From Atribacterota bacterium (lineage in GTDB: Bacteria > Atribacterota > Phoenicimicrobiia > Phoenicimicrobiales > Stramentimicrobiaceae), in contig JAQVMU010000007.1 in assembly GCA_028703475.1 (NCBI GenBank), positions 1-40,834 on the forward strand: 40,834 nucleotides of DNA. The letters are read 5' to 3'. Below are positions 28 through 35,750 of the stretch, in pieces. Position 1 is the stretch's first letter; each line of letters begins with the position of its first letter. Made by a program: the position numbers and the translations under genes. The notes beneath the pieces are model-generated. The model made no database searches, was not told the origin of the DNA, and was given only the letters and a program-made list of their open reading frames with translations.

Positions 28-828
28 TTACAGATTCAATACCTCTTTTGTTGAAAAAAGTCCCTTCTTTTTATTTAAAATAAAATTAATCGCCTTAACT
101 GCTCCTTCGGCGAATGCATCCCTGCTGTATGCTTTATGAGTCAGTTCCAGTCTTTCACCCAGGGAATTGAAAATGATTGTATGCTCTCCACTTATATTTC
201 CAGCTCTTATGGCATGAATACCGATTTCCCCTTTATTTCTAGCGCCAATATTTCCACAACGTCCATAAATTGCTGATTTATCCAGCTTTACACCTCTTTC
301 ATTAGCAATTATTTCAGCAATTTTCATGGCAGTACCACTTGGTGCATCCTTTTTATAGCGATGATGTGTTTCAATAATTTCAATATCATATTCGGCATCC
401 AATACAGCTGCTACTTTTTTTGCTAAATCAAATAATAAATTAACTCCTAATGCCATATTTGGTGAAAACACTATGGGAATATTTTCTGAGGATTCCCTGA
501 TATTTTTTACCTGGTTCTCAGATAATCCGGTTGTACCAATCACACAAGCTTTCTTATGTTTTGAACATATTATCAGATTATTCATTGTTGCCTCAGGATT
601 TGTAAAATCTACAACTACATCACATTTTTCAATAATTTTGTCAAGGTTATCTTCAATAATTATTTCAGTTTTACCAATTCCATTTACAATCCCCCAATCC
701 TGACCGATGGCAGGGTGTTTACTTGACTCTATAACCCCAACTAACTCTAGTGTATCATCCTGATAGATGAGTTTAGCTATAAGTGATGCCATTTTACCGC
801 ATCCTCCACAAACAATAACATTATTCAT
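28..828 (-). CDS. dapB: 4-hydroxy-tetrahydrodipicolinate reductase
   Basis: This enzyme makes tetrahydrodipicolinate with NAD(P)H in the diaminopimelate/lysine pathway, in the cytoplasm. The 266-residue protein has the usual family length. It starts with a Rossmann nucleotide-binding loop (CGGCGKM, residues 7-13). It has GTTG at 98-101, SPNMALGVN at 122-130, and the catalytic signature ETHHRYKKDAPSGTA at 153-167 with the proton-donor histidine pair and the lysine. It is the last gene of the lysA-dapF-dapL-lysC-dapA-dapB operon. Its Shine-Dalgarno (GGAGG) lies inside the last codons of dapA, two bases before this gene, so translational coupling is likely. Only 27 bases follow it in the window and no terminator is seen there, so the operon may continue. 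Confidence 0.96.
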   Translation of the reverse strand: MNNVIVCGGCGKMASLIAKLIYQDDTLELVGVIESSKHPAIGQDWGIVNGIGKTEIIIEDNLDKIIEKCDVVVDFTNPEATMNNLIICSKHKKACVIGTTGLSENQVKNIRESSENIPIVFSPNMALGVNLLFDLAKKVAAVLDAEYDIEIIETHHRYKKDAPSGTAMKIAEIIANERGVKLDKSAIYGRCGNIGARNKGEIGIHAIRAGNISGEHTIIFNSLGERLELTHKAYSRDAFAEGAVKAINFILNKKKGLFSTKEVLNL

Positions 829-830
829 CT

Positions 831-1715
831 TTAATCCTCCAATAAATTGAATGATCTTAAATCTTGCTTTAGTTGTTCAAAATTACTGTTTTCCATATCA
901 ACCATGGGTAAACGTAAATTTCCTGCCGGCAAACCCATTAACCGGGCAGCTGTTTTAACAGGAATTGGGTTAGTCTCATAGAACATGGCTCGGCTCAAAG
1001 GATATATTGTTTTAAAGAACATTTCCCGTGCTTCCTCATAACTGCCTTCCTCAAATTTTCTGACCATTAAAGATACTTCTTTGGGAATAATATTTGCTAC
1101 AACCGATATTACTCCTTTACCCCCTATGGATAATACCGGGAGCAATATTTTATCATCTCCGGATAATAAAGTGAGTTTGTCACCACACAAATATATAATT
1201 TCGGCCATTTGTTCAAGATTACCGCTTGCTTCTTTTACTGCTGTAATATTTTTCAATTCAGCTAAACTGGCCAGGGTAGAAGGCAATAAATTGACACCGG
1301 ATCGTGATGGTACATTATACACAATTGCCGGAATATCAACCTTTTCAACAATGGTTTTAAAATGCATATAGAGACCTTTTTGTGTAGGTTTATTGTAATA
1401 AGGCATAACCAATAAGGCACCGTCGGCTCCCATTTCCCTGGCTGCTGAGGTAAGTTCAATAGCCTCTTCAGTGGAATTAGATCCGGTACCCGCAATTACC
1501 GGAACCCTTTGATTAACTGCATTAATGGTTAATTCTATGACTTTTTTATGTTCTTCATGGCTGAGAGTCGGAGATTCTCCGGTAGTTCCGCAGGGAACAA
1601 TAGCATCAGTCCCGTTTTTTATATGGAACTCAACCAAATCCTTAATTCCCTGTTCATCAATTCTATTATTTTTATCAAATGGTGTTATTAAAGCAACAAT
1701 TGATCCTCTAAACAT
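831..1715 (-). CDS. dapA: 4-hydroxy-tetrahydrodipicolinate synthase
   Basis: This TIM-barrel aldolase condenses pyruvate with aspartate semialdehyde, the first committed step to diaminopimelate and lysine. It is 294 residues, the family norm. The motif GTTGE is at 43-47, the catalytic tyrosine is Y133 in IVYNVPSRSG, and the Schiff-base lysine is K161 in AVKEASG. An AAGGAGGATA ribosome site precedes the ATG. It sits between lysC and dapB in the lysine operon. The related N-acetylneuraminate lyases and keto-deoxy-sugar aldolases share the fold. The GTTGE loop and the gene context decide for DapA. Confidence 0.97.
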   Translation of the reverse strand: MFRGSIVALITPFDKNNRIDEQGIKDLVEFHIKNGTDAIVPCGTTGESPTLSHEEHKKVIELTINAVNQRVPVIAGTGSNSTEEAIELTSAAREMGADGALLVMPYYNKPTQKGLYMHFKTIVEKVDIPAIVYNVPSRSGVNLLPSTLASLAELKNITAVKEASGNLEQMAEIIYLCGDKLTLLSGDDKILLPVLSIGGKGVISVVANIIPKEVSLMVRKFEEGSYEEAREMFFKTIYPLSRAMFYETNPIPVKTAARLMGLPAGNLRLPMVDMENSNFEQLKQDLRSFNLLED

Positions 1716-1768
1716 TTTAAATATCCTCCTTTTTTATTTGCCTGTTTTGGCATATATTATTTTCTTAA

Positions 1769-3016
1769 TTATTTTTGAGTATTAATTCCAATTTCACCAA
1801 GAGTCTGACGAATCAGCTGGTAAACTTTATCCTTATTATTCCAGGAAACAAATATTAATATATCAGTCTTTATTGTAACCATTTCCAAAATATTTATATT
1901 ATTTTCCGCCAATGGACGTGTTATTTTTTCAATAATACCAGGGGTATCTATAAAATCTCTGCTACTCACTACAATGAGGGCAATATCTTCTTTTGATGTA
2001 ACAGATTTTAACTTTTCACTCTTTAATACAGAAAGATGTATCAAATCATATGCTTTTTTACTATACTTTTCAGATACATAAATACCGATATATTGAATTC
2101 CTATTGCAATACTCTGTATACTAATATTATTTTTCGATAATGGTGTAATTATATCCCTCAATATTCCTGGAGTTTCTAAAATACTATCTCCAACTATGGT
2201 CAACAAACAAAGCTTGTCCTGAAAAATATCAACCTTGCTGGAAAAACTGCCTTCAATTTCCGTTCCAGGAGAGTCTAAATCTCCATTTTGAAAATGAATT
2301 ATCTTTGATCTCATATTTTTATTTTTATATTTTAAAGCCCTGGGGTGTAATACTTTTGCACCGCTTTCAGCCAAAATACCCATCTCTTCTACACTTATTT
2401 TTGGCAACATTTCTACTTTTTTGACTAATCTGGGATCTGCCGAAGCAACACCTGATGCATCGGTAACTATAATAACCTCATCTGCTTTAATAAAATCACC
2501 TAAGGCAAAAGCTGTAATATCACTTCCGCCCCTGCCTAAACATGTAATAATATTATCTTTCTCACTCCTCCCAAGGAAACCGCAAACCACCGGAACAATT
2601 CCTTTTTGTAACAATGGTTCAAGATAAGTCTGACATTGTTCTTTGCTTTGCTTTGATAAAATATCTGCTTCCAGTAAATTCTTGTTATTAGTAATAATAG
2701 GAAAATCATCTCCGGAAGGATCAAAAGGGCGTGATTGTATTTCTTGAGCCCTTAATGAAGCAGCTACCAACTGGGCACTCATCCTCTCTCCAAATGATAC
2801 AAATTGAGCATAATCGTTCATGTCATAACCGGATTTGGTTACTCCTTCCAATAATGATATTAAATTATCAGTAGTGTCTCCCATAGCTGAAACTACTACT
2901 AAAACTTCATGACCTTCCTTTACTTTTTTAGCAATTGAATTGGTTGCCTTTTCAATCCGATCTATATCCCTTATACTTGTTCCACCAAACTTAACTACAA
3001 TTCTAATGATAATCAC
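1769..3016 (-). CDS. lysC: aspartate kinase with two C-terminal ACT domains
   Basis: Aspartokinase phosphorylates aspartate, the entry step to lysine, threonine and methionine. The 415-residue protein has KFGGTS at 9-14, SFGERMSA at 74-81 and GRGGSD at 161-166. Two ACT regions follow, from about 273 (VGDSILETPGIL) and about 354 (SSRDFIDTPGII), which in the family bind lysine and/or threonine as feedback inhibitors. The start is uncertain. The GTG used here overlaps a GAGGTGAT sequence that itself looks like the ribosome site. The usual N-terminus (M)RIVVKFGG would then begin at an ATT codon at 3005-3007, five bases downstream. Control of the operon by the upstream lysine riboswitch suggests a lysine-sensitive isozyme. 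Confidence 0.95.
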   Translation of the reverse strand: MIIIRIVVKFGGTSIRDIDRIEKATNSIAKKVKEGHEVLVVVSAMGDTTDNLISLLEGVTKSGYDMNDYAQFVSFGERMSAQLVAASLRAQEIQSRPFDPSGDDFPIITNNKNLLEADILSKQSKEQCQTYLEPLLQKGIVPVVCGFLGRSEKDNIITCLGRGGSDITAFALGDFIKADEVIIVTDASGVASADPRLVKKVEMLPKISVEEMGILAESGAKVLHPRALKYKNKNMRSKIIHFQNGDLDSPGTEIEGSFSSKVDIFQDKLCLLTIVGDSILETPGILRDIITPLSKNNISIQSIAIGIQYIGIYVSEKYSKKAYDLIHLSVLKSEKLKSVTSKEDIALIVVSSRDFIDTPGIIEKITRPLAENNINILEMVTIKTDILIFVSWNNKDKVYQLIRQTLGEIGINTQK

Positions 3017-3094
3017 CTCATTTACTATTTAATAATTTTACAAAATATCATACTGTAATATCAGAAAATAATGCCTTTTTATATCTTTAAATGT

Positions 3095-4267
3095 TTATGC
3101 TGTATAAATGATATTGGCCTTTTCCAATCTACCTATTGCCTCTTTCATCCTGGGCACATCTACGGTTAACGCAATTCTAAAGTATCCTTCTCCGTACTGA
3201 CCATATCCTACGCCAGGTGTTACGATTATCCCTGTTTTCTCCAAAACCTTATTGGCAAAATCAATAGAACTCATTCCAGCCGGTGTTGGAGCCCAGACAT
3301 AAAATGTTCCTTTTGGAGCCTCCAGAGACCATCCAAGTTTGTTCAAACCTTCTACAATCACATTTCTTCTTTCAGTATACATGTCTATCATCTGTGGAAT
3401 ATGATCTTGTGGACCTGTTAAGGCAGTTACTCCCGCTTCCTGAATAGCCTTAAAAATACCTGAATCCACATTTGTCTTAATTATTGAAAGGGCAGATATT
3501 GCTTCTTGTCCACCTACTGCAAAGCCGATCCTCCACCCGGTCATATTATAAGTTTTTGATAAAGAATGAAATTCCAGAGAAATATCCTTCGCTCCCTCTA
3601 TTTCCAGGATACTTGGTGATTTGTAACCATCATATGCCAGTTCTGAATATGCAAAATCATGACATATCAGCAGATTATATTTTTTAGCGAAATCAACAAC
3701 CTCTTTAAAGTAATCCAGACTTGCAACTGCACCGGTTGGATTGTTGGGATAGTTTAGAAATATCAGTTTTGCTTTTTTCGCTATACCTTCATCTATCTTA
3801 TCTAAATCCGGCAGAAAACCATTCTCTGCCAATAATGGCATATAATATGGCTTGCCATTGGCAAATAATGTTCCTGTCTTGTAAACAGGATATGCCGGAT
3901 CCGGTATCAAACTTATATCTCCGGGATCAATAAAAGCTAAAAACACATGGGCTATTCCTTCTTTTGACCCGATAAGAGAAATTATTTCCTTATATGGGTC
4001 AAGCTTTACCCCAAATCTTTTCAGATACCACTCTGCAGCTGCTGACCTGAATTCTTTAGTTCCTTCATAAGGCGGATAATCATGAGTTTTGGGATCCCGG
4101 GCACTTTTTTCCAGCTGGTCAATAATATATGAAGGTGTGGGTTTATCAGGATCTCCGATCCCTAAATTAATTATATCCACACCCCTGGCGATTGCTGCTT
4201 CCTTTTTCTTGTCAATTTCTGCAAATAAATATGGTGGCACATTTTTAATTCTTTCTGCAATCTTCAT
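3095..4267 (-). CDS. dapL: LL-diaminopimelate aminotransferase
   Basis: DapL is a PLP enzyme that converts tetrahydrodipicolinate directly to LL-diaminopimelate with glutamate as donor, bypassing the succinylase and acetylase routes. The 390-residue fold-type I aminotransferase has [11 protein letters not shown] at 35-45, NNPTG at 175-179, and the PLP lysine K238 in [14 protein letters not shown]. Its place between dapF and lysC, with no dapD/dapC/dapE homologue in the operon, supports the DapL assignment over a general aspartate aminotransferase. A GGAGAAG site precedes the ATG. DapL is typical of plants, Chlamydiae and many anaerobic bacteria and archaea. Confidence 0.92.
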
Positions 4268-6639: not shown

Positions 6640-6688
6640 CTAAAATAATAACAAGCTTTCTTTTTACCCCCCTTTTATCTCTCCTCGA

Positions 6689-6870
6689 TGAGATAGCGCA
6701 CCATCAGAAACCGGGAGTAGTTTCTGATGACAGTACTATGATTGTTCACCATAGCCCCAGCCTGAAACTTAGAGCATCAGTATTCAGACTTCGGCGAAGA
6801 CCCCTTTCCTGATAAATCATTGCTGCTCAGCTTATTATCAGTACTGTTGATTCTTCGCGCCTCTACCCCA
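6689..6870 (-). promoter_or_regulatory. lysine riboswitch (L-box) aptamer
   Basis: Read on the minus strand, this has the conserved L-box blocks in order: GGGGTAGAGGCGCGAA, an AGTA loop, AAAGGGGTCTTCGCCGAAG, CAGGCTGGGGCTATGG and GCGCTATCTCA. P1 is formed by TGGGGTAG (6863-6870) with CTATCTCA (6689-6696). By analogy with Bacillus lysC leaders, lysine binding should lock P1 and free the downstream terminator arm, switching the lysA-dapB operon off. The terminator geometry and the antiterminator complementarity are visible in the sequence. The ligand is inferred from the class. Confidence 0.96.
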
Positions 6871-6915
6871 CTTCAGATAAAAAGTGAGGCAATTCAGTAT
6901 TTGATTGTTATAAAC

Positions 6916-11069: not shown

Positions 11070-13433
11070 TTATTCAACAAGTCCCTGCTCGGTACGACTT
11101 ATTATTTCATCCTGGAGATCTTTGTTAAGGTTGTTAAAGAAATCACTATACCCGGCTACTCTCACAATAAGATTTTGGTAATTCTCCGGGTTAAGCTGAG
11201 CAGCCTTTAAGATTTCAGTATCTATCACATTAAACTGTATGTGGTGACCGCCAAGCTTAAAATAAACCTTGATAAGTTGTGCCAGGCTATTCAGTCCTTT
11301 TTCTCCTTCAATTATTGAAGGAGAAAACTTTTGATTCAAAAGAGTCCCACCGGTTCTAACATGATCCATTCTGGCAGCCGATATAATAACAGCAGTCGGG
11401 CCTTTCTTATCTGCACCTTGGGCAGGGGAAATCCCTTCTGATAATGGTTTATTTGCTTTCCTTCCATCAGGAGTTGCCCCAACAACAGAACCAAAGTAGA
11501 TATGGCAGGTAGTTGGCAACATATTAATATGATAATAGCCTCCTTTGGTATTTTTACGCCCATCTACTTCCCTAAAAAAGGTATCAAATACATCTTGCAT
11601 AATACTATCAGCATATTCATCATCATTGCCGTATTTGGGAGAATGATTCTTTAATATATTCCAAATTTCTTTTTCTCCTCTAAAGTTTTGTTTTAAAATT
11701 TCCACTAAAGTTCTCATTGTAACACTACTATTATCATAAACATGATGCTTAATTGCAGATAGGCAATCAGTTATAGTCCCAATCCCTACTCCCTGTATAT
11801 AACTGGTATTATAACGTGCTCCACCGTTATTATAATCCCTGCCTCTTTTAATACAATCATCTATAATTATAGAAAGAAAAGGAGATGGCATAATAGAGGC
11901 ATATAATTGTTCAATTATATGGTTTCCTTTCACTTTTATATCTACAAAATAATGAAGCTGTTCCTTGAATGCTGAAAACAATTGCTTGAAATTAACAAAG
12001 TTTTCAGGGCTTCCCGTATTGATTCCTATTATTTTACCTGTTTGAGGGTCTTTACCATTGTTCAGAGTAATTTCCAGTATCTTGACCAGGTTAAGATAAC
12101 CAGTTAAAATATATGCTTCTTTTCCAAAAGCCCCGGTTTCTACACAACCACTGGTTCCACCTTCCCTTGCATCAGCAATATCCTTACCTTGTCTGAGCAT
12201 TTCAGATATCACTACATCTGCATTAAAGACCGAGGGCTGTCCCCAGCCTTTTCTGATTATTTCACAAGCACGTTTTAAAAAGTAGTCTGGATTTTTTTGA
12301 CTAAACTGGATATTAGTACTTGGCTGCAATAATCTCATCTCATCAATGACATCCAGGATAATGTAGGTAACTTCATTCACAGCATCTTCTCCGGTTGGGG
12401 TTAATCCACCATTATTGATATTAGCAAAATCAGTATATGTACCACTTTCTGCCAGGGTAACACCGACTTTTGGGGGAGCCGGCTGATTATTAAATTTAAT
12501 CCAGAGACACTCTAATAACTCTTTTGCTTTTTCTCTATTCAGGTCACCTGCTTTTAAGTCATTATGGTAAAAAGGATACAAATGCTGGTCTAAATGACCT
12601 GGGCTAAAAGAATCCCAGGTATTTAGTTCGCTGATAACTCCAATATGTACAAACCAGTACATCTGTAGTGCCTCATGGAAATTTCTGGGTGCATGCGCCG
12701 GAACCTGCCTGCATATATCTGCAATTTTTAACAGTTCCTTTTTTCGAATCTCAGCATGTTCAGTTTTGGCTTTTTCCTCCGCTTTCCTGGCATAACGCTC
12801 ACCTAATGTTATTATGGCATCACAACAGATAGCCATAGCTTTAAGCTGATTCAATTTTTGAAAAACATGCTCATCATTTTGATAATCAAGATTATTTATC
12901 TGTTCTATAATTTCCTGTTTAAAACCCAGAAATCCCTTCTTGTATATCTTACCATCTGCCACAGTATGTCCTGGTGCCCTTTGCTCCATAAATTCAGTAA
13001 AAATTCCTGCCTCATAACAATCTTTCCATTCTTTATCCATCATTTCAAAAAGTTGATATCGGATAGATCTTTTTCTCCAAAATGGAATTATTAATTCTTC
13101 CTGTATCTTTTTAACATCATCATTTACCGCAAATGAAATCCTTTCTCTGTTGGCAATCATATCTAAATCCTCAATTGTATGACAGCATAATTCAGGATAT
13201 GTTGGCGTTCCGCAGGCAGAACTCCCCCTTTCACCTACAATTAATTCTCCTTCTTCAATGTTAATGGTCTTCTTTTCTAATATATATTTAAAGGATAAAG
13301 CCCTTAAGATAGGAATAGTTACCGTTCCAGAATATTTCTGGTAAGCCTCAGTCAAAAGTCTTGCTCTCTGAATATCAATATATGGTTGGGTAGTCAAGCT
13401 TATGTTTCTTAATTTTTCAATTCTGGGGTTCAC
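11070..13433 (-). CDS. hypD: glycyl radical enzyme, probable trans-4-hydroxy-L-proline dehydratase
   Basis: This oxygen-sensitive 787-residue pyruvate-formate-lyase-type enzyme has its thiyl cysteine C430 and base E432 in GGTSGCVETG. The glycyl radical site is G761 in VRVAGYSDFF. Residues known (from memory) to line the HypD active site all recur at a constant offset of four: F148, H156, D274, S330, D335 and Y446. HypD dehydrates trans-4-hydroxyproline to 1-pyrroline-5-carboxylate, which is then reduced to proline or fed to ornithine and glutamate. The start is GTG, with GGAGG lying in the end of the upstream activase gene. No pyrroline-5-carboxylate reductase gene is in the window. Choline, glycerol or propanediol dehydratases are the alternatives but fit less well. 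Confidence 0.85.
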   Translation of the reverse strand: MNPRIEKLRNISLTTQPYIDIQRARLLTEAYQKYSGTVTIPILRALSFKYILEKKTINIEEGELIVGERGSSACGTPTYPELCCHTIEDLDMIANRERISFAVNDDVKKIQEELIIPFWRKRSIRYQLFEMMDKEWKDCYEAGIFTEFMEQRAPGHTVADGKIYKKGFLGFKQEIIEQINNLDYQNDEHVFQKLNQLKAMAICCDAIITLGERYARKAEEKAKTEHAEIRKKELLKIADICRQVPAHAPRNFHEALQMYWFVHIGVISELNTWDSFSPGHLDQHLYPFYHNDLKAGDLNREKAKELLECLWIKFNNQPAPPKVGVTLAESGTYTDFANINNGGLTPTGEDAVNEVTYIILDVIDEMRLLQPSTNIQFSQKNPDYFLKRACEIIRKGWGQPSVFNADVVISEMLRQGKDIADAREGGTSGCVETGAFGKEAYILTGYLNLVKILEITLNNGKDPQTGKIIGINTGSPENFVNFKQLFSAFKEQLHYFVDIKVKGNHIIEQLYASIMPSPFLSIIIDDCIKRGRDYNNGGARYNTSYIQGVGIGTITDCLSAIKHHVYDNSSVTMRTLVEILKQNFRGEKEIWNILKNHSPKYGNDDEYADSIMQDVFDTFFREVDGRKNTKGGYYHINMLPTTCHIYFGSVVGATPDGRKANKPLSEGISPAQGADKKGPTAVIISAARMDHVRTGGTLLNQKFSPSIIEGEKGLNSLAQLIKVYFKLGGHHIQFNVIDTEILKAAQLNPENYQNLIVRVAGYSDFFNNLNKDLQDEIISRTEQGLVE

Positions 13434-13436
13434 TTT

Positions 13437-14351
13437 TTATCCTCCAATAATAGCATAGATATTATTCTGAAAAAATATCTGTTGTAATTTTGTAATATGT
13501 TCATTTTTATTTGTGGATATGTTTTTAAGCCTGTTCTTTATCTGCAGTCTGGCAAATTTTTCAATGCCCATCCTGTGAAAAGGCAATAAACTGACTTTTT
13601 CTAACCTTAAGGAATTCATTAATTCTGCTATTGCTCTAATATCTTTGCAGGAATCATTAATTTTTGGTATTACAGGTACTCGAATCTCAATATGGCTTGT
13701 TTTCTTTGATAACCTTCTCAGATTATCTATTATGAGACTGTTTTGCACCCCGGTATATTTTTTATGAGTTTTTTCATCTATTACCTTAATATCATATAAC
13801 CATAAATCAACCATATCTGCAATTCTTTCAAAATAAACCCATGGAACATGTCCACATGTATCTATTACAGTACTAATTTCCATTTTTTTGCATTCAGAAA
13901 GTAATTGTTCTAAAAAATGAATCTGTACCATTGGCTCTCCACCGGAAAAAGTAACTCCCCCTCCGGATTCCTGGTAAAATATTAAATCCTTTCTGATTTC
14001 GGCAATTACCTGCCCCACATTGAATTTACTACCGGATATTTCTCTGGCGATAGCCGGACAAATATTAACACAATACCCGCAAGCCAGGCATTTATTTTTA
14101 TCAGTATAGGGATATTTGTCTTTTATTGTAATAGCATTCTGGGGACACTGGGAGATACATTGATAACATTGAATACAGTTATTGAAATTAAACAATATTT
14201 CAGGTTGATCCAACCAGCTTTCAGGATTATGACACCACCAGCATCTTAATGGACAACCTTTTAAAAAAACGGTCGTACGAATACCAGGCCCATCATGAAT
14301 GGCAAATCTTTTAATATCAAACACTAATCCACTATTCATATTAAAACTCAT
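13437..14351 (-). CDS. glycyl radical enzyme activating enzyme (radical SAM), HypE-like
   Basis: The activase uses S-adenosylmethionine and a [4Fe-4S] cluster to put the glycyl radical on its partner enzyme, here the gene three bases downstream. The 304-residue protein has the radical-SAM triad C33, C37 and C40 in CPLRCWWC. A ferredoxin-like insert with two more cluster motifs follows (C59/C62/C65/C69 and C88/C91/C94/C98), then the SAM-binding TFSGGEP. This two-cluster insert is typical of activases of dehydratase-type glycyl radical enzymes, unlike the PFL activase. The start is not firmly fixed: a second ATG is at 14337-14339, and neither has a strong ribosome site. Confidence 0.92.
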   Translation of the reverse strand: MSFNMNSGLVFDIKRFAIHDGPGIRTTVFLKGCPLRCWWCHNPESWLDQPEILFNFNNCIQCYQCISQCPQNAITIKDKYPYTDKNKCLACGYCVNICPAIAREISGSKFNVGQVIAEIRKDLIFYQESGGGVTFSGGEPMVQIHFLEQLLSECKKMEISTVIDTCGHVPWVYFERIADMVDLWLYDIKVIDEKTHKKYTGVQNSLIIDNLRRLSKKTSHIEIRVPVIPKINDSCKDIRAIAELMNSLRLEKVSLLPFHRMGIEKFARLQIKNRLKNISTNKNEHITKLQQIFFQNNIYAIIGG

Positions 14352-18467: not shown

Positions 18468-19727
18468 TTAAAACTGATGAACAAAAATGCCACTTCTTAT
18501 TTTCGGCTCAAACCATGTTGATTTTGGGGGCATAATTTTTCCTTCATCGGAAACCTGCAGTACTTCTTTAATAGAAGTTGGAAAAATAGTAAAGGCAATA
18601 TCTGCTCCCTGGTCTATCTTTTGTGATAATTGCTTCAAAGAATCTGTACCACCAATAAATTCAATATTTTTATTTTTTTGAGGATCATCAATACCTAAAA
18701 GTGGTCCTAAAACATAATCCTGTAGTATAGAAACATCCAAATCATCAATTATAGTTCGATCTATCTTATTTTCTTTATTTAATTTGAAAAATAACTTATA
18801 CCATTGGCCTTTCAAATTCATACCAAACTCATGTTTTTTGCCAGGCAAAAATGGTTTATTCATAGAAATGTTCTTCACTTGAAAAATTTCTTTTAATTTA
18901 TCCAAAAATAAATTGGCAGAAAATCCTGTTAATTTTTTTATCAACCGATGGTACCCTAAAATCTGAATTTGATCATGTGGTAATAGCACAGCTGGAAAAT
19001 AAGAGTATTCTCCTTTTTTTAAAGCTGGTATTTCTTCTTTTTCTTTTCTTAGCCTTTTTGCGACCTCTGCTGCCGCAGCAGCACGGTGATGTCCATCGGC
19101 AATATACACAAATGGTATTTCTTTAAAAGCATTCTTTAATGATTTAATTGTATCTTCTTTATCAATTTTCCAGCATTTGTTTTTTACCTCATCTTCTTCG
19201 GAGATAAAATCATAAATTTTATTTTCAACTGTCATTGAATTTTGCAGAATTTCACCTACCCGAAAATTACTCTTATAAACTGTGAAGACACATCCAGTAT
19301 GGGCTCGTACATTATAGATATGTTCAACTCTTCCCTGCCAGGCTCTTAACCTGATTTTTTCATGTTGTTTTATTATTCCTTTTTCATAATCATCTACCGT
19401 AAGACATGCTACAATTCCGGTTCTACAATAAAAACCATTAATTTGCTGATAAATATAAAAACAAGGTTTTGAATCTGTTTTCATTACTCCCTGTTCTATC
19501 ATATTTGTTAAATTCCTGGCAGCTATCTCTGTAGCATTTCTTTGAGATAATACTTCTTCCCCGGATACAAGTGCTTCCGGTTTTATTACTCTTAAAAAAG
19601 AACAAGGATTTCTCTTAATTATTTCAACAGCTTTTTCACGACTCACAACATCATAAGGAGGAGAATTAACAAGGGATACCTTTTCCCCTACAGGCCTTAA
19701 TGCTTTAAAAGGACTTATTTCAACCAT
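18468..19727 (-). CDS. DUF1015 family protein in the serine operon
   Basis: A 419-residue conserved protein of unknown biochemical role. Visible family features are the N-terminal SPFKALRPVGEK and NSPPYDVVS, PCSFLRVIKPEA at 41-52, the IIKQHEKIRLRAWQGR block around 118-133, and a central YIADGHHRAAAA with DGHHR at 211-215. No signal peptide or membrane segment is seen. Its ATG overlaps the serA stop by one base (TAATG), so it is translated with serA under serine T-box control. The DGHHR motif resembles one in ParB/Srx-fold free-serine kinases. With no phosphoserine phosphatase gene in the operon, a role in phosphoserine/serine interconversion is a reasonable but unproven guess. Confidence 0.9.
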   Translation of the reverse strand: MVEISPFKALRPVGEKVSLVNSPPYDVVSREKAVEIIKRNPCSFLRVIKPEALVSGEEVLSQRNATEIAARNLTNMIEQGVMKTDSKPCFYIYQQINGFYCRTGIVACLTVDDYEKGIIKQHEKIRLRAWQGRVEHIYNVRAHTGCVFTVYKSNFRVGEILQNSMTVENKIYDFISEEDEVKNKCWKIDKEDTIKSLKNAFKEIPFVYIADGHHRAAAAAEVAKRLRKEKEEIPALKKGEYSYFPAVLLPHDQIQILGYHRLIKKLTGFSANLFLDKLKEIFQVKNISMNKPFLPGKKHEFGMNLKGQWYKLFFKLNKENKIDRTIIDDLDVSILQDYVLGPLLGIDDPQKNKNIEFIGGTDSLKQLSQKIDQGADIAFTIFPTSIKEVLQVSDEGKIMPPKSTWFEPKIRSGIFVHQF

Positions 19728-20665
19728 TAAACTTCCTTCCTGGAAAACTCTTTATCATTCTTATACTCTTCAATTATACTCAAAATTTGTTGTCCTATCC
19801 GATACTGTGCTTCTTTAGTAGATCCACCAACATGAGGGGTTACAGAAATTTTTTCGTGCTGTATCAATTCAAAATTATCGCACGGTTCATGAATATAAAC
19901 ATCAACACCTGCTCCTGCAATTCCTCCGTTATCCAGGGCTTTCAACAGTGCCTTTTCGTTTACCAGATTACCCCGGGCAGTATTAATTAAAAAAGCGCTT
20001 TTTTTCATCTTTTTCAGTTCCGGTTCATCAATTAGATAATTTCCATTATCACTGGCAGGAACATGCAATGAAATAAAATCTGATTTTTCCAAAACTTCCG
20101 ATAGGGTTGCAAACTTCCAATCCGGATTACTGTTAATAGGTCCCATAATATCAGTATATGTTATCCTCATACCCAGCACGCTGGCTTTTTGGGCTAAAAG
20201 CTGTCCTATTCTTCCCATTCCTACTATCCCTAAAATTTTTCCACTTAGTTCGATACCTTCACAGAGTTTTTTTGCCCATTTTCTCTCCCGCATGGTTAAG
20301 TTTGCAGGCACCATTCTTCTGGCCAGTGTAAACATATGGGCAAGTACCAGTTCGGCTACTGCTGAGCTACTCGCTTCAGGAGTATTTAAAGCTGTTATCC
20401 CTCTCTTTTTGGCATAAGCTACATCTATATTATCCATACCGACGCCTGCTCTTATAATAAGTTTGAGCACTCCGGTATCAGCTGCAGCATCAATAACCTC
20501 CCTGGTTACTTTTGTTGCTGAGCGTATGATTAGAATCTCGTTTTCCCTCACTTCCTTTAATAATGTATCCGGTTTATCAGGATTATCCCTGACAATAAAA
20601 TTTCTTTCCTTTAACTCCTCAATTAAACCCGGGTCAACTTTATCTTTTATGAGGATTGTAATCAT
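19727..20665 (-). CDS. serA: D-3-phosphoglycerate dehydrogenase, short form
   Basis: SerA oxidises 3-phosphoglycerate to 3-phosphohydroxypyruvate with NAD, the first step of serine synthesis. The 312-residue protein has the NAD-binding GMGRIG at 149-154, RAGVGMDNID at 72-81, TARGNLVNE, and the catalytic histidine in TPHVGGST. It ends there with no ASB or ACT regulatory domain, so allosteric inhibition by serine through an ACT domain is not expected. Control would then fall on the T-box. AAGGAGGTATAAAAG precedes the ATG. It lies between the class V aminotransferase (3-base gap) and DUF1015 (1-base overlap). Other 2-hydroxyacid dehydrogenases share the fold; the context supports SerA. Confidence 0.9.
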   Translation of the reverse strand: MITILIKDKVDPGLIEELKERNFIVRDNPDKPDTLLKEVRENEILIIRSATKVTREVIDAAADTGVLKLIIRAGVGMDNIDVAYAKKRGITALNTPEASSSAVAELVLAHMFTLARRMVPANLTMRERKWAKKLCEGIELSGKILGIVGMGRIGQLLAQKASVLGMRITYTDIMGPINSNPDWKFATLSEVLEKSDFISLHVPASDNGNYLIDEPELKKMKKSAFLINTARGNLVNEKALLKALDNGGIAGAGVDVYIHEPCDNFELIQHEKISVTPHVGGSTKEAQYRIGQQILSIIEEYKNDKEFSRKEV

Positions 20666-20668
20666 CTT

Positions 20669-21745
20669 TTATACCTCCTTTTTCAGGATTTCATCAATAA
20701 CAGCCAATAGTTCTTCTATTTCTTCAATAGTGATGTCACCCATGTGAGCAATCCTGAATGTTTTCTCTTTTAACTTTCCATAGCCATTTGAGATGGCAAA
20801 ACCCTTCATTCCTAAGATTTGATTAAGTTGCTGTACACTGATTCCCCGAGTATTTTCTATACATGTAACTGTATTGGAAGCATACTCTTCCTCAGGGAAC
20901 AGTTTAAAATTATCATTAGCCCATTTTCTTACTATATTTGCCATCGCCATGTGCCTTTTAAACCGGTTTTCCATCCCTTCCTCAAAGATTAAATCTAACT
21001 GGTAATCCAAAGCAAACATATGAGAAAGAGAGGGAGTAGAAGGATACTGGTAATCCTTTTTTTTCATATATTCATATAGTTTTAATAAATCAAAATACAT
21101 ACCCCGGTATTTAACTTCTCTTGCCGCACTTATGGCTTTTTCGGAAATAGAGCATAAAGAAAGCCCTGGAGGTAATCCTAAACATTTTTGGCTTGAAGAA
21201 ATACAAATATCAATACCCAGCTCATCTACCGGAATTGAAACTCCCCCTAAAGAGCTGACTGTATCAACACAGAATACTATCCCAGGATACTTTCGCATAA
21301 CATCTGCTATTTCATTGATTGGATTCATTACCCCGGTAGATGTTTCATTATGAGTAATAGTAACAAGGTCGTATTCCCCACTTTTAATTACCTCATCTAC
21401 CATAGCCCCTCTGGTCGGCTGGCCATATTCAACTTTAAAACAGTCTGCTTTAACTTGATTGGCTAAAGCCATTTCATACCATCTTTCACCAAAAGAACCA
21501 CATGAAAAGACTGCCGCTTTCTTTCTGGTACAGGAACGGATAGCACCTTCCATCAATCCACTTCCTGATGATGTAGAAAGAAGTATTTCGCTGTCCGTAA
21601 ACATCAGCTTTTGTAATTTCCGGCTAATTGACCGTTGTAAATCAGATGCTTCTTTGCCCCGATGGCCAATAAGAGGAGTAGACATCTTCTTTAATACAAT
21701 GTCTTTTACTTCTGTAGGTCCTGGAATAAATAACTTTATCTGCAT
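20669..21745 (-). CDS. class V aminotransferase, probable phosphoserine/serine-glyoxylate type
   Basis: A PLP enzyme of the alanine-glyoxylate/serine-pyruvate aminotransferase group. In this operon it most likely converts phosphohydroxypyruvate to phosphoserine, as archaeal-type SerC proteins of the same group do. It is 358 residues from the ATG chosen here. Motifs are LFIPGPTEV at the N-terminus, STSSGSGLME, THNETSTG, CVDTVSSLGG, and the PLP lysine K187 in SSSQKCLGLPPG. An upstream in-frame ATG (21757) has no spaced ribosome site, while GGATGG lies eight bases before 21745. It is the first gene behind the serine T-box. Serine-glyoxylate or alanine-glyoxylate transamination are the alternatives. 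Confidence 0.85.
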   Translation of the reverse strand: MQIKLFIPGPTEVKDIVLKKMSTPLIGHRGKEASDLQRSISRKLQKLMFTDSEILLSTSSGSGLMEGAIRSCTRKKAAVFSCGSFGERWYEMALANQVKADCFKVEYGQPTRGAMVDEVIKSGEYDLVTITHNETSTGVMNPINEIADVMRKYPGIVFCVDTVSSLGGVSIPVDELGIDICISSSQKCLGLPPGLSLCSISEKAISAAREVKYRGMYFDLLKLYEYMKKKDYQYPSTPSLSHMFALDYQLDLIFEEGMENRFKRHMAMANIVRKWANDNFKLFPEEEYASNTVTCIENTRGISVQQLNQILGMKGFAISNGYGKLKEKTFRIAHMGDITIEEIEELLAVIDEILKKEV

Positions 21746-21780
21746 ATATTTTACCATCCTTGTTTTTTCTTCTACTAATA

Positions 21781-21814
21781 AAAAACCCCAGTAGTTTATT
21801 ATAAACTACTGGGG
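21781..21814 (-). terminator. intrinsic terminator of the serine T-box
   Basis: On the minus strand the arms CCCCAGTAGTTTAT and its complement (21786-21814) form a near-perfect hairpin followed by six T. Its 5' arm is the part that the T-box antiterminator pairs with, so uncharged tRNA should block its formation. Confidence 0.93.
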
Positions 21815-22077
21815 ACGATGTTCTCTTCGCGGTGCCACCCCAATTTAGCTTAATTTGTCAAAACAACAAATAAAAATAAGCAATAAATCTGAGCCCTTCT
21901 TTTATATAACGCTTTCAGCGGTTTGAGGTAATCAGGTTTCCTTTATCTCAAACTATATTCAGATGGATTTCAGTCAATTCCCTGCTGATTTTTCACCTGT
22001 TTTCAGCTCTCTGAAAAAAAATTATGACTTACTGTTCTGAATTTCTGTCTTTTTATTTATTATTGAATTAATAATTG
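21781..22077 (-). promoter_or_regulatory. T-box leader, specifier reads Ser (TCC)
   Basis: The minus strand carries the invariant T-box GGGTGGCACCGCG (21828-21840) and an AGAGAG-type Stem I start (AGAGAGC at 22006-22012). In the specifier loop it carries GAAATCCATC, where TCC at 21965-21967 occupies the codon position. TCC is a serine codon, matching the serine-synthesis genes that follow. The leader senses the ratio of charged to uncharged tRNA-Ser and should let transcription through when serine is short. The T-box class is certain. The codon reading depends on my manual placement of the specifier loop. Confidence 0.9.
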
Positions 22078-22083
22078 CCTAAT

Positions 22084-22112
22084 AAAATAGCACTTTAGAG
22101 ATATATTGTCAA
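22084..22112 (-). promoter_or_regulatory. promoter of the serine operon
   Basis: On the minus strand TTGACA (22107-22112) and TATTTT (22084-22089) are exactly 17 bases apart and just upstream of the T-box leader. The bases between this promoter and the purH stop (22113-22192) hold only a weak AAAAGT/ACTTTT hairpin. Confidence 0.8.
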
Positions 22113-34568: not shown

Positions 34569-34633
34569 TTAAAAAATATATACAAAAAGCCTGAGAAATA
34601 AATCCTTTTACAGAACCTATCTCTCAGGCTTTT
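34569..34633 (-). terminator. intrinsic terminator of the ykkC-class leader
   Basis: On the minus strand AAAAGCCTGAGAGA pairs with TTTCTCAGGCTTTTT about 17 bases later, and T-rich sequence follows. The 5' arm is the conserved 3' end of the ykkC aptamer itself. Ligand binding would therefore compete with terminator formation and should turn gdhA on. Confidence 0.88.
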
Positions 34634-34720
34634 ATCCTAAAAGTGTAGCAATTAATTATTTTGCTTGTACCGCTCGGTCCAGGCTCAAAATATCGCTTAA
34701 TATTGACGGAACCCTAGGTA
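34615..34720 (-). promoter_or_regulatory. ykkC-family riboswitch upstream of gdhA
   Basis: The minus strand has the hallmark ykkC blocks: ACCTAGGGTTCCG, then CCTGGACCGAGCGGTACA, then TACACTTTTAGGATAAAAGCC and TGAGAGATAGGT. ACCTA and TAGGT close helix P1. Known ykkC subclasses bind guanidine (type I) or ppGpp, PRPP and other phosphorylated ligands (type II). Guanidine switches normally precede carboxylases and exporters, whereas ppGpp switches precede amino-acid synthesis genes. The gdhA context favours ppGpp, but I cannot fix the subclass by eye. Confidence 0.85.
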
Positions 34721-34768
34721 CACTTCTGCTTTAACATGTTAATGCTTTATCAAATTATTTAGTTATAG

Positions 34769-35474: not shown

Positions 35475-35750
35475 AATTTAATATTTTAAAATAAAGAGAA
35501 ATAATTAAGTAAAGGTTAAACTAAAGAGAGTCGGGTATGGTGTAATCCGATAGTTTAATTATACTGAAAATCACTTCTTTTTAATCTATTTATACTGTAT
35601 GTAGTATTAGAAGTACAGTCGCTTATATTTGCGTTATAATAATGAAGGATAAAGAAAACAAGTTTTCTTTATTGAATTAGGGTGGTAACACGGAAACCTT
35701 CGTCCCTATTTTTATAATTATTAAAATAGAGATGAAGGTTTTTTGTTTTT
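35475..35750 (+). promoter_or_regulatory. T-box leader, specifier reads Ile (ATC)
   Basis: AGAGAG (35525-35530) opens Stem I. The specifier loop GAAAATCACTTC places ATC, an isoleucine codon, at 35570-35572. The invariant AGGGTGGTAACACGG (35679-35693) is the T-box bulge that pairs with the tRNA acceptor end. Uncharged tRNA-Ile should stabilise the antiterminator and allow transcription of ilvB, ilvN and ilvC, which fits their role in isoleucine and valine synthesis. The codon reading is by manual placement but agrees with the downstream genes. Confidence 0.93.
35696..35750 (+). terminator. intrinsic terminator of the isoleucine T-box
   Basis: AACCTTCGTC and GATGAAGGTT form the base of a long hairpin, extended by TATTTT/AAAATA, and a run TTTTGTTTTT follows. 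Its 5' arm is shared with the T-box antiterminator. Confidence 0.92.

Follow-up and report, generated by a model that had tools for sequence, protein, structure and literature searches.

The window analysed here, i.e. the whole stretch of 40,834 nucleotides from contig JAQVMU010000007.1 of the Atribacterota bacterium assembly GCA_028703475.1, contains on its minus strand an operon composed of a serine-type T-box leader, a class V aminotransferase gene, serA and a gene of the DUF1015 family. We consider it reasonably probable that the DUF1015 protein is an enzyme with the fold of the free-serine kinase SerK, which converts O-phosphoserine to serine either by hydrolysis or by transfer of the phosphate to an acceptor. 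The prediction draws on the leader and layout of the operon, on the modelled fold and its conserved motifs, on the recurrent linkage to serA and serC, and on the absence of the phosphatase SerB.

The T-box leader and the gene trio

The leader (21808..22048, minus strand) is the first element of the operon and matches the Rfam model RF00230 with 91.2 bits, just below the gathering score of 93 (E-value 1e-20 in a short scan and 9e-19 across the whole window). Despite this near miss we call it a T-box, since every hallmark part is present: a UCC (Ser) specifier at 21967-21965, an antiterminator core (GGGUGGCACCGCG / UGGGGUGGCACCGCG) at 21842-21828 and an intrinsic terminator at 21780..21814 (all on the minus strand). 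The terminator, CCCCAGTAGTTT...AAACTACTGGGG plus U6 with its end at 21780, was read in the sequence and appears as a hairpin in the computed fold (z = -3.4 for the leader). An AGUA region lies near 22033, and the UGGC bulge is compatible with a tRNA carrying G73, e.g. tRNA-Ser.

The class V aminotransferase (AGXT/PhnW-like, 362 amino acids (aa), PF00266; 20669..21757, minus strand) comes first and is presumed to be the phosphoserine aminotransferase; no specific equivalog model matched it above cut-off, and its position next to SerA is conserved in related families. The SerA-type D-3-phosphoglycerate dehydrogenase (PGDH; 312 aa, PF00389 and PF02826; 19727..20665, minus strand) is a short form: its top NCBIfam match is the PGDH model TIGR01327, at a score under the long-form cut-off of that model, and the regulatory domain is absent (no ACT domain was found in the protein). 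The DUF1015 protein (419 aa; 18468..19727, minus strand) matches PF06245 over model positions 1-325 of 325 with 301.7 bits (cut-off 25.8, E 7e-90), while NCBIfam holds no model that matches it. Only 3 bases separate the aminotransferase and SerA genes, and the SerA stop and the DUF1015 start overlap by a single base (TAATG). The architecture put forward by the sequence-only reading, with a Ser-specifier T-box over three tightly joined genes, is hereby confirmed.

T-boxes allow expression of the downstream genes when the cognate amino acid is short. How the present leader behaves we infer from this established pattern: given the serine specifier and the junctions of 3 bases and 1 base, DUF1015 would be made under serine starvation, which indicates a biosynthetic direction, i.e. 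the enzyme should make serine.

The trio is not a chance arrangement, since the same three genes occur in the two families that stand closest within the phylum (with the order aminotransferase-SerA-DUF1015 retained and a DUF1015 identity of about 43-52%) and, together with T-boxes, in several Clostridia. Such leaders were seen upstream of the equivalent operon at three Clostridia loci, and upstream of a serA-DUF1015 pair at one further locus. The sole relative that has no DUF1015 also has no close SerA (best identity 36%, against 61-63% in the relatives).

Scanning GTDB genomes gave 80 loci, which were ordered by their resemblance to the present DUF1015 and so do not sample the family at random; 41 of them have SerA, SerC or the aminotransferase on the same strand at a distance of no more than 2.5 kb. 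Lachnospiraceae and Peptoniphilus have the gene order SerC-SerA-DUF1015 and Clostridium has aminotransferase-SerA-DUF1015; the order DUF1015-SerA-SerC occurs in Gemmatimonadota, Planctomycetes and Acidobacteriota. That the order varies around constant partners speaks for a functional tie and not for a single inherited cluster. The association is also evident in a set of 248 Bacteroidota genomes (completeness at least 95%; serA-type DUF1015 defined by E <= 1e-100, SerC by NF003764): SerC is present in 115 of the 118 DUF1015-positive genomes, and in 90 of these 115 the DUF1015 gene lies within 3 kb of it.

Predicted fold and motifs shared with free-serine kinases

The DUF1015 protein was modelled with AlphaFold2 from an alignment of 11 sequences (predicted local distance difference test 89.7, predicted template modelling score 0.88). 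We then ran Foldseek against 350,542 PDB chains, taking E <= 1e-3 as significant. Only nine chains matched at this level, each with probability 1.00: six belong to SerK or its Pyrococcus homologue (best E 1.7e-8) and three to SbnI (E 1e-6), all of them free-serine kinases. Template modelling (TM) scores, at 0.31-0.36 by query and 0.49-0.59 by target, are modest, and the structural alignments with SerK have 12-16% identity. The kinship with ParB/SerK-type free-serine kinases, which the sequence-only reading had drawn from a motif, is thus borne out on the kinase side; neither ParB nor sulfiredoxin is among the significant matches. A chromosome-partitioning role suggested by ParB likeness was rejected, as ParB structures are missing from these matches and the operon is metabolic.

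The link to SerK comes from the fold search only: sequence searches of the PDB with the protein or its alignments (phmmer, profiles) returned nothing real, a fold search of BFVD gave nothing significant, and tblastn of SerK against plasmids yielded no matches. The SerK of Thermococcus kodakarensis matches both ParB_N and SerK_C of Pfam, whereas the DUF1015 protein matches neither even at E <= 10; for this reason we do not assign it to the SerK family.

Three conserved motifs can be paired with those of SerK, whose sequence, verified with the PDB record, was used to locate E30, DGHHR (69-73) and PKTT (220-223). Conservation was counted over 58 diverse DUF1015 proteins. H122-E123 (19359..19364, minus strand), invariant in 58/58, is the proposed counterpart of SerK H29-E30, in which E30 was the mutated position of the SerK structures; the equivalence is drawn from motif order and secondary structure, H122-E123 standing just before a helix as H29-E30 does in our reading of SerK. 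A210-D-G-H-H-R215 (19083..19100, minus strand) pairs with V68-DGHHR73 and is again invariant in all 58 proteins; DGHHR is found at residues 211-215, exactly where the sequence-only reading had placed it. M399-P-P-K-S-T404 (18516..18533, minus strand) pairs with the S219-PKTT223 stretch, with M399, P400, K402 and S403 invariant in 58/58 and T404 in 57/58. The latter two pairings were obtained with hhalign in the correct order (PPKSTW/SPKTTR with E 3e-5; IADGHHR/IVDGHHR with P 0.013 on its own), at a score against SerK of 41.5; 150 unrelated open reading frames gave no score above 21.8, and 100 shuffles none above 25.9.

SerK is an ADP-dependent free serine kinase (PDB 5X0B-5X0K; PMC5120207), and its Pyrococcus homologue PF0380 corresponds to 1VK1. 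DUF1015 has in common with SerK the predicted fold, the like order of HE, DGHHR and PK[ST]T and (in Desulfurococcales) the neighbourhood of serA and an aminotransferase. It differs by its length (SerK has 242 aa), by insertions between HE and DGHHR, by an extra N-terminal part and by the proposed direction from phosphoserine to serine. SbnI, from the staphyloferrin B cluster (PDB 5UJE, 5UJD, 6NR6), is alike in fold, and works in the kinase direction for siderophore synthesis. Judging from the model, the DUF1015 protein resembles SerK in shape and probably works alike.

Absence of SerB and the proposed reaction

The sequence-only reading stated that the operon has no phosphoserine phosphatase. 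This holds for the operon and extends to the genome: using TIGR00338 over its cut-off as the test for SerB (a search that leaves histidine-type and YsaA-type phosphatases outside), no match was obtained in the source genome (1.79 Mb, rated 100% complete; best score 31.8 against 144 bits). SerB is equally missing by this test from all 26 genomes of the phylum and from all 50 DUF1015-bearing genomes taken from many phyla, against 7 hits among 14 control genomes. Four HAD proteins (L002-L005) were tried as canonical SerB and rejected, given that they match generic HAD models.

In Bacteroidota, where serA-type DUF1015 occurs in 118 and SerB in 74 of the 248 genomes, SerB accompanies DUF1015 in 9 of 118 genomes but is found in 65 of the 130 without it (odds ratio 0.08, Fisher p 6e-14); with a DUF1015 score above 400 bits the count drops to 2 of 100. 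SerC is present in 142 genomes, of which 115 have DUF1015 (106 of those without SerB), and the exclusion persists among these SerC-positive genomes (p 4e-4). DUF1015 therefore tends to replace SerB, a HAD protein of unrelated fold and family which carries out the step proposed here for DUF1015 and which is mostly absent where serA-type DUF1015 is present. Comparable non-homologous replacements are SerB2-SerB4 of gut genomes, although these are histidine-phosphatase and HAD proteins (PMC9026213).

We propose the following course. On serine shortage uncharged tRNA-Ser would build up and the T-box would permit read-through, by which the three proteins would be made. SerA would then convert 3-phosphoglycerate to 3-phosphohydroxypyruvate, the aminotransferase would turn the latter into O-phosphoserine, and DUF1015 would strip off the phosphate to give serine, in place of SerB. 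As residue roles in a SerK-type active site we infer that E123 may serve as acid/base residue, while D211-G-H-H-R215 would bind metal and phosphate and P400-x-K-S-T404 would hold the substrate. The phosphate acceptor might be water or, with the free-serine-kinase reaction reversed, inorganic phosphate (giving pyrophosphate), AMP or ADP. An action on phosphoserine or serine, as suggested earlier, is thus supported as a predicted role: in the three checks set beforehand we found no SerB elsewhere in the genome, co-occurrence with serA, and a predicted fold related to that of the free-serine kinases.

DUF1015 also occurs in other settings. In the other classes of the phylum a DUF1015 of about 25% identity is encoded in an operon of the order RACo-type ASKHA activator-DUF1015-hexulose-6-phosphate synthase-6-phospho-3-hexuloisomerase (loci L016-L032, e.g. 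L025 at 33-4010), and its predicted fold likewise matches the SerK group only. Among 101 carriers in Acidobacteriota the serA-type (about 470-670 bits) and the distant type (75-201 bits) never co-occur, and genomes of the source phylum also seem to hold either one or the other; such a distribution would fit a single job shared by both types. Of the nine Bacteroidota genomes in which SerB and DUF1015 coexist, seven fall in the lowest-scoring DUF1015 group (below 400 bits), which is rarely located beside SerC (4/18) and is possibly a subgroup with an altered role.

A number of observations weigh against the phosphoserine-to-serine reading, and there are rival explanations. First, SerK and SbnI are known to work in the opposite direction, making phosphoserine from serine, and handing the phosphate of phosphoserine on to AMP or ADP is uphill; transfer to inorganic phosphate is nearer balance if the pyrophosphate is removed, and hydrolysis is easiest. 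A tentative prediction, which we hold to be doubtful, is that DUF1015 represents another kind of enzyme for the phosphoserine-to-serine step: a phosphotransferase of the SerK fold that, instead of simply hydrolysing phosphoserine, passes the phosphate to an acceptor such as inorganic phosphate (giving pyrophosphate), AMP or ADP. If true, bacteria of many phyla would finish making serine with no phosphatase involved and might conserve some bond energy. The main rival takes DUF1015 for a free-serine kinase, which forms O-phosphoserine from serine and feeds phosphoserine-dependent cysteine synthesis or a return to 3-phosphoglycerate. Fold and motifs shared with SerK and SbnI suit this explanation, as does the archaeal arrangement in Desulfurococcales, where serK adjoins serA and an aminotransferase gene and which Makino in 2016 interpreted as serine assimilation (PMC5120207). 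However, a T-box activated by serine shortage would then serve to consume serine, and SerB-free genomes would be left without an enzyme for the final step of synthesis; we regard a kinase as unlikely.

Second, the replacement of SerB is imperfectly established: Fisher tests ignore shared ancestry, nine Bacteroidota genomes hold both SerB and DUF1015, and the Acidobacteriota contingency (2 of 69 genomes with serA-type DUF1015 have SerB, against 2 of 50 without) is not informative, SerB being rare in that phylum either way. The source genome has four HAD proteins of generic type, so that a non-canonical phosphatase may be present. It might be argued that a HAD or histidine phosphatase elsewhere performs the step and that DUF1015 regulates by binding serine or phosphoserine, or acts as a partner of SerA/SerC, all the more because SerA lacks a regulatory domain here and further types of phosphoserine phosphatase are known or proposed (PMC9026213). 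Yet the motifs equivalent to the catalytic ones of SerK are invariant in 58/58 proteins, which is unusual in a mere sensor; moreover, the tendency to replace SerB would go unexplained, and in Clostridia DUF1015 also partners a SerA of about 390 aa. A regulator or partner is in our view improbable.

Third, the quality of the fold match is moderate (TM 0.3-0.6, root mean square deviation 6-9 A over two domains), and since the DUF1015 of the RACo operon shares the predicted fold, the substrate is not proven by fold alone. In addition, no serine gene lies inside 2.5 kb at 39 of the 80 loci and some DUF1015 genes belong to non-serine operons; the claim that the gene is locked into a serine operon consequently stands at this locus but not family-wide. 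Both observations would agree with a small-molecule phosphotransferase that has a different main substrate and meets a side requirement in the serine operon, but this is quite improbable, as the recurrent partners are serA and serC and Acidobacteriota and the source phylum carry one type or the other, as for one job.

Surroundings of the operon and the serine-synthesis gap

Downstream of the operon lies an ornithine carbamoyltransferase gene, which starts 170 bases past DUF1015. Elsewhere in the window a second T-box (35488-35710, plus strand; 81.8 bits, below the Rfam cut-off) is located upstream of ilvB, an ilvN-like gene and ilvC. A ykkC-type RNA (34619-34728, minus strand) scores 58.7 against 63 bits with the Guanidine-I model and precedes a glutamate dehydrogenase gene; from this context it may be a ykkC subtype other than guanidine. 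A lysine riboswitch (6686-6873, minus strand) precedes a lysine/diaminopimelate operon of lysA, dapF, an aminotransferase, aspartate kinase, dapA and dapB, and the stretch 11070-14351 (minus strand) encodes a glycyl-radical enzyme together with the activating enzyme.

COG4198/PF06245 (DUF1015) is listed as a family of unknown function. A metagenome survey of 2007 reported glycine riboswitches upstream of its genes in Firmicutes and proposed no function (PMC2211319), and a 2025 survey of the ParB-CTPase fold names 'DU1015' (apparently DUF1015) among the architectures of that fold, with no link to serine synthesis seen in its text (PMC12704722). By title or abstract, neither of the two open-access papers found to name DUF1015 is about serine. 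Within the open-access literature (subscription journals were outside the search) we found no paper that gives the phosphoserine-to-serine step to DUF1015.

The final step of serine synthesis is a documented gap: 450 gut genomes have SerA and SerC yet none of the four phosphatases considered in that study (PMC9026213), and the step is unassigned in all Roseburia studied (PMC7478625) and in Caldithrix (PMC5317091). GapMind reports the gap in serine prototrophs such as C. perfringens (PMC7311316), it is described for Desulfovibrio as well (PMC5764234), and published reconstructions leave the step open across hundreds of Firmicutes. DUF1015 is found in the serine operon of Lachnospiraceae and Clostridium, which are home to many of these gaps (the gap genomes were not each checked).

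With one named family and its predicted active site, the serine-synthesis gap becomes open to direct testing. If the phosphoserine-to-serine role is true, predictions of serine auxotrophy would be corrected for many gut and environmental bacteria, a large DUF family would gain a function, and a metabolic role would be added to the ParB/SerK fold.

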